From NCBI GenBank assembly GCA_027064165.1, contig JAMOQE010000053.1, forward strand, positions 1 to 36,167: a stretch of 36,167 bases of DNA. The letters are read 5' to 3'. The stretch comes from Thermodesulfatator sp. (GTDB lineage Bacteria > Desulfobacterota > Thermodesulfobacteria > Thermodesulfobacteriales > Thermodesulfobacteriaceae). Shown one piece after another: positions 18,349 to 20,959 of this stretch. The notes below the pieces were generated by a model. The model ran no database searches, was not told where the DNA came from, and saw nothing but the letters and a program-made list of their open reading frames with translations. The position numbers were made by a program, and so were the translations under genes. Each line of letters begins with the position of its first letter. Within the stretch, counting starts at the first letter, position 1.

Positions 18349-19508
18349 AACTCAACCTCCTTTAATTTTTTAAGCTCTTCTACCACATCCAGATATACTT
18401 TCCAGACTTCAGGAGCAGGCTCCTTTCCCTCAACCAGCTTGTAAAACTCCCTGAAAAGCTCCTTTTCGTCAAGAAGTATTTCCTCCTTTATTAATCCTTC
18501 TTCCTGGATAATATCTTTTTCTTTTAATTCTTTTTCGTATTCAAGAATAACCAAATTGGGAAACCTCTCTTTCAGTCTTTCATAGGCATTAAACACTGGC
18601 ATGTCTTCTTCAAGGATTACCCTCACAAAAGCCTCTGTAGCAGGGCTTTTTAGAACTTCCTCAAATTTGCCTTTGAGCGTAATAAGTTCAAAAGTAGAAT
18701 GCAAATGCACCTTTTCTTCCCTTATTATTTTACCTCCTCTGCACTCAATAAACCACACTCCTTTGGGATTTTTTGCTTCACTAAAGCTATAGGGAAGAAT
18801 TGAACCGGAGTAATACACCTTATTTATTTTCTGCATCCTGTGAAGATGCCCGAGGAAAGCCATATCAAAAGGCAAAAGACTTGAAAGGGGAAGGACCTCC
18901 TCACTTCCTATTCCTTTCATAGTGGTTTCTTCACCTGAAAAAAAGGCCTTTTCCACAGCAAAATGTCCCAGAAAAAATGATGGGTGCTTAATTTCTCCAA
19001 GTTGAGATACCGCAAAAGAAAAAAGCTTGCTGTAGGTTATTTCTTCCCCAAGAGTTTTTATCCGGGAAGGAAACATCTCTTCCAGATGATTTTTTAATTC
19101 GTAAAAGGAAAGATAGGGAAAAATGTAAAAATAATACAGTTCCTTTTCCCCAAACACAAGTGGCTTATAAAATTGGCTTAAGTCATCCACCAGCATGATG
19201 TTAAGATGACAAAGAAAGTCTTTAAAAAGAGTAAGTCTTTTAGAATCGTGATTTCCGGGAATGATTATAGCGGGTATTTTCAGGTCTAAAAATTTTTTTA
19301 ATATGCTTACGAAAAGATTCTGGGTTTCTAAATCTGGATTTGGGCGGTCAAAAATATCTCCTGTAATAAGAAGGACATCAGGCTTTGCTTCCCTGAGAAA
19401 GGGAAAAAATTCTTTTTCAAAATAAAGGCACTGCTCTTGAGTAAGGCGCCTGCCAAAAAGGATTTTACCCAGATGCCAGTCTGAAGTGTGGACAATTCTC
19501 AAACTCAA
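18339..19508 (-). CDS. sbcD: SbcD-like Mre11-family nuclease subunit
   Basis: The 389-residue protein has the metallophosphoesterase motifs of SbcD/Mre11: HTSDWHLGK with D10 and H12, ITGDIFDRP with D51, IIPGNHDS with N86-H87-D88, FLGHFAVE and FLGHLHRM. With SbcC it would form the nuclease that trims DNA ends and cleaves hairpins at the nucleoid. The C-terminal part (about 280-389) is a capping and SbcC-contact region. No sbcC gene is in the window, which is unusual because the two are most often adjacent. It overlaps rlmE by four bases and dapB by ten. Confidence 0.9.
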   Translation of the reverse strand: MSLRIVHTSDWHLGKILFGRRLTQEQCLYFEKEFFPFLREAKPDVLLITGDIFDRPNPDLETQNLFVSILKKFLDLKIPAIIIPGNHDSKRLTLFKDFLCHLNIMLVDDLSQFYKPLVFGEKELYYFYIFPYLSFYELKNHLEEMFPSRIKTLGEEITYSKLFSFAVSQLGEIKHPSFFLGHFAVEKAFFSGEETTMKGIGSEEVLPLSSLLPFDMAFLGHLHRMQKINKVYYSGSILPYSFSEAKNPKGVWFIECRGGKIIREEKVHLHSTFELITLKGKFEEVLKSPATEAFVRVILEEDMPVFNAYERLKERFPNLVILEYEKELKEKDIIQEEGLIKEEILLDEKELFREFYKLVEGKEPAPEVWKVYLDVVEELKKLKEVELCQ

Positions 19509-20098
19509 CCCTTAAATCCAAGAGCAATTATAAAAATTTCCCTACTTTCTTTGCGGCTACTTTTTGGTTTAAAAAATTTAACACTTTTAAAGGATTTTTC
19601 AATTTCTTTTTTAAGAAGTGGTGTTTTTTCACCTTCAAAGACTTTTATAACCAGCGAACCTCCTTTTTTAAGGAGCTGAATAGCAAGCTCAAAGGCCTTT
19701 TTTGCAAGTTCCACAGATCTTACATGATCCCCAAATTTGTCTCCAGTTGTTTTGGGAGCCATATCACTTAAGACAACATCAAAATTTTTTATTTCAAGGG
19801 CCTCAAAGTCTTTATTTCCAAGAGTAAATGCATCTTTTTGAAGAAAAACAAAGTTTGGCAGGGAAATTTTCACTTCCTGAAGATCAACTCCCACCACTTT
19901 TCCCTTGGCTCCAACCAGCTTTGCTGCAAACTTTGACCATGAACCCGGAGCACATCCAAGATCAAGCACAAGAAAGCCCGGCCTGAGGATTCTGTACTTT
20001 TTCTGTATTTCTTCAAGCTTAAAAACCGATCTTGCAGGAAACCCCTTTTCCTTTGCCTTTTTTGCCCACTTATCAAACCAGGGATTCTTTTTAGCCAT
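19505..20098 (-). CDS. rlmE: 23S rRNA 2'-O-methyltransferase RlmE (FtsJ)
   Basis: RlmE/FtsJ methylates U2552 of 23S rRNA at the ribose. With the ATG at 20098 the protein is 197 residues: PARSVFKLEEIQKKY with the first catalytic Lys, SAM motif LVLDLGCAPGSWSKF, VVLSDMAPKTTGD with the catalytic Asp, and SLVIKVFEGE with the second Lys and Glu. A TTG at 20158 would add 20 residues, but these are in a different frame of the preceding zinc-ribbon gene and look unlike the family, so I prefer 20098. There is little Shine-Dalgarno; the start sits inside the last codons of the upstream gene (ATGGCTAA), which suggests coupling. Confidence 0.93.
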   Translation of the reverse strand: MAKKNPWFDKWAKKAKEKGFPARSVFKLEEIQKKYRILRPGFLVLDLGCAPGSWSKFAAKLVGAKGKVVGVDLQEVKISLPNFVFLQKDAFTLGNKDFEALEIKNFDVVLSDMAPKTTGDKFGDHVRSVELAKKAFELAIQLLKKGGSLVIKVFEGEKTPLLKKEIEKSFKSVKFFKPKSSRKESREIFIIALGFKG

Positions 20099-20309
20099 TT
20101 TTGTCTGAGTTTTTGAATTCTTTCTGCTCTTCCAGAGAGCAGGCAAGAAACTCCTCAATCATGGCTTCTTTCATAGCCTCTATTTCTTCCTCGTACTCAC
20201 TTGCAGGCCTTTCCATTCCACAGGTAAGGCACCTTACCTTAGCGTTTGCTCAGGTGCCAACAAGCTCTGCCTCTCCTCCACAATATTTACACTTGAGCTT
20301 TGGTTCCAT
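20091..20309 (-). CDS. Zinc-ribbon protein with in-frame UGA at codon 20 (candidate selenoprotein or nonsense mutant)
   Basis: A frame of 72 codons runs from ATG 20309 (AGGAAAA upstream) to TAA 20093-20091 and holds one internal TGA (20252-20250). Both sides make a coherent protein: CKYC (7-10) before it and CLTC (27-30) after it, together one zinc ribbon, then an acidic helix (SEYEEEIEAMKEAMIEEF). The stop overlaps the rlmE start (ATGGCTAA), as expected for an intact coupled gene. Directly after the UGA a perfect 7-bp hairpin with a G-first loop occurs at SECIS-like distance. Options are selenocysteine, a Trp/Arg/Ser codon mutated to stop, or a base error. No selenocysteine gene is in the window. 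Function of the ribbon is unknown; small ribbons of this kind often bind nucleic acid. Confidence 0.6.
20222..20252 (-). promoter_or_regulatory. Hairpin downstream of the in-frame UGA (SECIS-like)
   Basis: On the minus strand AGGUAAG (20239-20233) pairs perfectly with CUUACCU (20228-20222) around the four-base loop GUGC. The loop opens with G and lies 18 bases after the UGA, inside the 16-37 base range usually given for bacterial SECIS elements. Two competing folds exist: ACCUGAGC with GCUAAGGU (one mismatch, UGA in the stem) and GGCACC with GGUGCC. Confidence 0.45.
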
Positions 20310-20315
20310 TTTTTC

Positions 20316-20667
20316 CTAATTTGTGCTTTTTATTTCTTTTTTTATAGTCTCCATTACACTTCTTAAATCTGTTTCTTCTGATTCCATAATTTTATCTTTT
20401 ATATGCTTATGGTTAGGAAAAGTTTTTATATAGCTATGATGAGGAGAATTATCCCATCTTATCAATAAATTTCCTTCTGCATCTTGCCAATGATAAAAAT
20501 ATTTTCTTTTACCTTCCAAAAACAAGTAGTCTTTAATATACAATACGGAATTATCAATAAACTTTATTTTTTGCTACTAATGCTCTTGCACTTCCAAATT
20601 TTTTGTAATCTTTAATTTCAAAATCTTTGATTATTTCTTTAAAATCTTCAACTATTTTGTAAAACAC
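20316..20667 (-). pseudogene. tumE: TumE-family toxin, frameshifted
   Basis: The C-terminal part (75 codons, from about 20543 down) carries TumE (DUF6516) marks: YHWQDAEGNLLIRWDNSPHH and FPNHKHIKDKIMESEE. Upstream a second frame runs from GTG 20667 (KIVEDFKEIIKDF, FGSARALVAK) to TGA 20556-20554. The two join in one reading if one base is removed from the six-T run at 20567-20572 (A-run on the coding strand), giving ALVAKIKFIDNSVLYIKDYL. So this is a toxin gene with a one-base homopolymer insertion, either a true inactivation, a slippery-site product, or an assembly error. The GTG lies within the end of the tumA gene, as expected for a coupled toxin. Confidence 0.75.
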
Positions 20668-20959
20668 TTTTCAGTTCTTCCAACTTTTTAGTCCAGTAAT
20701 TAAATCCTTCTATTGCAAATTCCCATGCCATTAAATCGTCATAGATTTCAAAATTTTCTTCCGAATTTTCGTATTCTTTTTTCACTTCTTCAAAAGTTTT
20801 GTTATATTTTTTTTGAAAAAATTCTATCTCCTCTTTAAATTGGCTTATTTTGAACAAAATTTCGGTAAACAGATAGTCTTTTATAATCTCTTCAACATTC
20901 TTTATATTCAATTCTTTAAGGATGGGTTGAATCTTCTCTTCAATTGATAAAACCTGCAT
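20648..20959 (-). CDS. tumA: TumA-family antitoxin
   Basis: The 103-residue, strongly acidic helical protein (VEEIIKDYLFTEILFKISQFKE is cut short here; KKYENSEEN-type Glu runs; DDLMAWEFAIEGFNYW near 73-88) matches the partner protein that precedes TumE toxins. The DxxMAWxFAxEG...YW pattern is what I recall from this group. It lies immediately before the tumE frame and overlaps it by about 20 bases. With the toxin broken by a frameshift the antitoxin alone may be kept or may be decaying. The ATG at 20959 has weak AGAGG-like sequence upstream (AAATTTTAGAGG). Confidence 0.75.
   Translation of the reverse strand: MQVLSIEEKIQPILKELNIKNVEEIIKDYLFTEILFKISQFKEEIEFFQKKYNKTFEEVKKEYENSEENFEIYDDLMAWEFAIEGFNYWTKKLEELKSVLQNS

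Follow-up and report, generated by a model that had tools for sequence, protein, structure and literature searches.

A small gene of Thermodesulfatator sp. almost certainly encodes a genuine selenoprotein, in which the in-frame UGA at codon 20 would be read as selenocysteine (Sec). This high confidence, which we draw from comparison of the sequence with its homologues, covers the selenoprotein assignment and not the chemistry of the protein. The gene lies in the window, by which we mean the whole stretch of DNA analyzed (36,167 nt of contig JAMOQE010000053.1), and its features are listed in Table 1. The frame translates as MEPKLKCKYCGGEAELVGT-U-ANAKVRCLTCGMERPASEYEEEIEAMKEAMIEEFLACSLEEQKEFKNSDKNG. 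As described in the initial annotation of this DNA, it is intact on both sides of the UGA, with one CxxC before it and another after it, and its stop shares 8 bases with the start of rlmE. C7, C10, U20, C27 and C30, in the order CxxC, Sec/Cys, CxxC, are invariant across the 52 sequences of alignment A1, which consists of window-type proteins, referred to below as clade B. The codons of the second CxxC overlap the loop and the 3′ stem arm of a SECIS-like hairpin.

Table 1. Features of the selenoprotein gene and its immediate surroundings in the window.
Feature	Position	Strand	Remarks
Selenoprotein gene	20309-20091 (20091..20309)	minus	72 codons + TAA
AGGA ribosome-binding motif, 5′ of ATG	~20318-20315	minus	
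Start ATG	20309-20307	minus	
First CxxC (C7, C10), first putative zinc knuckle	20280..20291	minus	Invariant in alignment A1
In-frame UGA, codon 20, predicted to be read as Sec	20252-20250	minus	Sec/Cys column in all 93 aligned homologues
SECIS-like hairpin	20222..20239	minus	7-bp stem, +11..+17 with +22..+28; GUGC loop +18..+21 (20232-20229)
Second CxxC (C27, C30), second putative zinc knuckle	20220..20231	minus	Invariant in alignment A1
Cys57, C-terminal helix	20139..20141	minus	Candidate resolving partner of Sec20; further Cys common in clade B
Stop TAA	20093-20091	minus	
rlmE (23S rRNA 2′-O-methyltransferase, FtsJ-type)	19505..20098	minus	ATG at 20098; neighbour not conserved

Reading of the in-frame UGA

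The initial annotation had proposed checking the genome for the Sec machinery and the homologues for their residue at codon 20, and both checks favored Sec. The host genome (1.49 Mb, 99.7% complete) encodes the full machinery, with tRNA-Sec (selC, 86.3 bits), SelA (613.6 bits), SelB (397.3 bits) and SelD (344.5 bits) all above their cut-offs. We found selA in nearly all relatives, in carriers and non-carriers of the gene alike, and its co-occurrence with the gene therefore discriminates little. A protein search detected the gene in 29 of 60 relatives, and in every one of them a TGA is in frame at the same alignment column. When homologues from the relatives and the wider phylum were aligned (93 sequences), this column was occupied by Sec in 66, by Cys in 27 and by Trp, Arg, Ser or any other residue in none, with a small bias to be taken into account since the profile used to search for homologues has Cys at this position. 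Two clade-B members (L086 and L087) are among those that use Cys. As a separate observation, the selD gene of the host genome (G000:C57:18236-19165, L052) has an in-frame TGA of its own, and SelD itself is probably a selenoprotein in this organism.

We then considered selection on either side of the UGA. Pooled over 12 relatives, pN/pS was 0.29 before the UGA and 0.17 in the 11 hairpin codons, and in the 21 codons that follow the hairpin it was 0.27. Purifying selection, as estimated from these differences, is similar on both sides of the UGA, and the ratio of 0.27 past the hairpin indicates that translation continues beyond the UGA.

Were the UGA a true stop, the locus would encode two products, a peptide of 19 residues and, downstream of it, a protein of 41 residues with its own start at the ATG at 20216, and a mechanically called ORF (20091-20216) does begin there, at codon 32. 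We rejected this possibility as very unlikely, given that most relatives have Ile or some other residue in place of the Met in question, that the residues between this Met and the UGA, including the second CxxC, are conserved, and that each form with Cys is encoded in one uninterrupted frame. Decoding of the UGA without selenium, through suppression by Trp, Cys or another residue, would be compatible with the existence of Cys homologues; we likewise rejected it, as highly improbable, because TGA is an ordinary stop in the host, where it terminates recA and rlmE, the Sec machinery is complete, the SECIS-like hairpin is conserved and Trp never appears in the column. Finally, the initial annotation had raised the concern that a TGG, CGA or TCA codon had turned into TGA through low sequence quality or through local decay, as in the fragmented tumE about 260 bases away, a scenario to which we assign a negligible probability, as it is excluded by the recurrence of this UGA, always in one alignment column, across dozens of independent genomes and by the purifying selection that persists past it, besides the absence of Trp, Arg and Ser from that column in all homologues.

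The fragmented tumE is a separate gene and has no bearing on the selenoprotein gene. This toxin gene is split (20316-20667, minus strand) between two frames, one of which holds its C-terminal part (Pfam TumE, profile positions 21-81) and the other a piece resembling the N terminus. A 103-residue ORF upstream of it (20648-20959) had no match in NCBIfam or Pfam.

The hairpin and its two registers

The UGA is followed by a hairpin, AGGUAAG-GUGC-CUUACCU, with seven Watson-Crick pairs; ten bases separate the UGA from the stem and the loop G is at +18. The initial annotation had reported a perfect 7-bp hairpin with a GUGC loop 18 bases past the UGA and G in first place, in agreement with the SECIS consensus, and this geometry is indeed present. 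The published bSECIS model calls for an upper stem of 4-16 bp, a loop of 3-9 nt, a G among the first two loop nucleotides and a spacing from the UGA of 16-37 nt (PMC13188914), and we saw no departure from it in stem, loop, G or spacing. An Rfam search gave no match at the selenoprotein locus. The placement of the hairpin after the UGA is more than would be expected by chance. The two strands of the window contain 1,167 TGAs, of which that of codon 20 alone is followed by seven Watson-Crick pairs with a tetraloop placed exactly at +18, and a looser geometry (seven pairs and a loop of 3-6 nt anywhere from +16 to +26) is found after three.

Conservation of the hairpin, which had also been suggested as a check, was evident in the relatives. 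Across 25 of them the seven pairs form in 100% of cells, a value reached by 0 of 500 shuffles, and sliding the partner by 1-3 bases reduced pairing to 23-54%. One pair has changed on both sides, being G-C in 15 relatives and A-U in 10; its bases are the third positions of a Val and a Leu codon, and both changes are silent. This compensatory swap supports the stem but is no proof on its own, since only one pair is doubly changed and an exchange between G-C and A-U may simply track the G+C content of the genomes. The pS of the hairpin codons was 0.53, compared with 0.70 before and 0.83 after them (12 relatives), and this lowered rate of synonymous differences points to a constraint acting on the RNA. 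The hairpin, starting 11 bases after the UGA, would recruit SelB with Sec-tRNA-Sec, so that codon 20 would be decoded as Sec.

In the clade-B genes of the phylum that lie outside the window's order, the +11 stem is paired in only 57.7% of cells, hardly above shuffles, whereas an alternative stem (+16..+22 with +28..+34) is paired in 88.4% of cells and has three doubly changed pairs. This alternative stem fails in the window's order, with 49.1% pairing. The loop G is correspondingly at +18 in the window's order and at about +23/+24 in the others. Since each stem fails in the other group, the hairpin is, as judged from these alignments, shifted about 5 bases nearer to the UGA in the window's order, while the position of the UGA is unchanged. 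In the window's order the loop is spelled by AGG UGY, the codons of the third Cys and of the Arg that precedes it, and in the other lineages by the codons just after the third Cys. Two registers following the same UGA constitute a clean comparison, which may be useful for testing the tolerance of SelB to spacing. Other arrangements were also seen. In two clade-B genes of the window's order with an in-frame TGA (L028/L137 and L029/L138), the downstream hairpin fits neither register well, and clade-A genes (see below; L038/L144, L145 and L097) show a third geometry, with a stem of about 6 bp and a CGNUGY loop that starts at +16 after the UGA.

Two clades of dual-CxxC selenoproteins

Among NCBIfam models, the window protein was matched best by NF041197.2 (CxxC_Se_CxxC), with a score of 38.9 bits when Cys was substituted for Sec, 1.1 short of the cut-off of 40. 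The initial annotation had regarded Sec between two CxxC pairs as a new arrangement. However, NF041197 is named for precisely this arrangement and is listed, with the motif RxU, as the known selenoprotein 'hypothetical protein OS_HP3' in a 2026 review (PMC13188914). Its name in NCBIfam is 'dual CXXC motif small (seleno)protein'. The first description of OS_HP3 was reportedly given in a 2007 paper. All 52 aligned clade-B proteins of alignment A1 matched NF041197, and the best clade-B members by E-value probably pass its cut-off. The window protein resembles NF041197/OS_HP3 in size, in the order and spacing of CxxC, Sec and CxxC, in the exchange of Sec for Cys and in phylum. It differs in that RxU is absent, with G-T-U in the window and mostly G-R-U in clade B, and in missing the CDRI/IIYD tail of clade A.

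A tree of 96 sequences separated the canonical NF041197/OS_HP3 proteins (clade A, 36 sequences) from those of the window type (clade B, 58 sequences) by a single branch with 100/99 support; the tree rests on few columns, yet this split is firm. The window gene is thus placed by the tree in a separate clade beside the canonical one, as an offshoot of this little-studied bacterial family. Alignment of the clade-B profile with the canonical profile (54 columns, 98.4% probability) confirms, at the level of sequence, that the two clades are homologous. High- and low-scoring copies occur together in approximately 30 of 395 genomes of the phylum (hand count), which indicates that clades A and B are paralogues. 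One genome (L097, G260:C5) has a gene of each clade on a single strand, separated by about 4 kb, and both genes contain an in-frame TGA.

The known dual-CxxC selenoproteins are therefore two deeply separated paralogues, one of which scores around or under the database cut-off, and because of these scores clade-B genes probably often go unnoticed or are truncated at the UGA. Clade B may already be among unnamed deep-Sep candidates, as 'hypothetical protein DW' or 'DG' (PMC12013277). The family itself is already named in public databases, and what is new here is modest: a second clade, the borderline score of that clade in the database and the occurrence of its hairpin in two registers.

Predicted fold, putative function and neighborhood

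An AlphaFold2 model of moderate confidence (mean pLDDT 74, pTM 0.46) has strands at residues 13-17 and 24-27, with Sec20 in the turn between them, and a helix at 40-66. The predicted fold is a zinc-ribbon-like beta hairpin with a C-terminal helix. Sequence and fold searches of the PDB returned weak matches, largely to zinc ribbons (Foldseek E 0.098 or worse, VIA Z at most 4.3), and indicated no function, and the match to Lar (PF14354) scored 20.1 bits against a cut-off of 28.6. RNA polymerase Rpb9-type ribbons, eS27, ZifS (8yoz) and Lar carry two CxxC knuckles on a beta hairpin, as is predicted for the window protein. To our knowledge, Sec is not known in any of these zinc-ribbon proteins. The window protein is also unlike thioredoxin-type selenoproteins, since it has no UxxC or CxxU pair.

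Of the 55 Sec-containing members of clade B, 47 have a further Cys past the second CxxC, at varying positions but mostly at a distance of 20-31 residues; a further Cys is also present in 10 of 11 Sec-containing members of clade A. We favor, with some reservation, a function in which the two CxxC knuckles would bind a metal, Sec would sit in the beta-hairpin turn between them and the C-terminal helix region would supply the further Cys in most members, such that Sec20 and the helix Cys form a selenol/thiol pair in a small protein that handles redox reactions or soft metals and chalcogens in anaerobes. The main alternative, which we judge rather unlikely, is that Sec is a metal ligand or a structural residue of the zinc ribbon and not a redox center. 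Its location between two presumed metal-binding knuckles would be consistent with such a role, as would the 8 of 55 Sec-containing clade-B members that have no further Cys; however, the secondary structure of the model puts Sec in the turn, at the opposite end from the CxxC knuckles, and a redox role would agree both with the replacement of Sec by Cys in some homologues and with the additional Cys that most members have.

We sought a shared partner in the gene neighborhoods across lineages and found none that was general. The neighbors vary by lineage, being rlmE in the window, dnaX/recR-type genes in several members of the genus, other housekeeping genes in the sister families and dsrMKJOP in one group of genomes (L089, L094, L098, L106, L108 and similar). 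In this last group, the clade-B gene and dsrP, the last gene of dsrMKJOP, converge, and a divergent gene for a TPR protein flanks the clade-B gene on its opposite side; the identities of DsrO, DsrP and DsrJ were confirmed by NCBIfam. The convergence with dsrP suggests a possible place in sulfur-reducing metabolism. Tentatively, and with doubt prevailing, one may go further and view clade B as a separate, so far unrecognized selenoprotein family with a job of its own, perhaps in dissimilatory sulfur metabolism, whose SECIS was rebuilt in a new register in one order. If true, this would be a natural example of a SECIS that relocated within one set of conserved codons while the UGA stayed fixed. 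Clade-B selenoproteins also occur in a longer form, as two loci of family f40 (L114:2641-3153 and L115:2980-3474) encode a clade-B selenoprotein fused to an extra C-terminal domain of roughly 100 residues.
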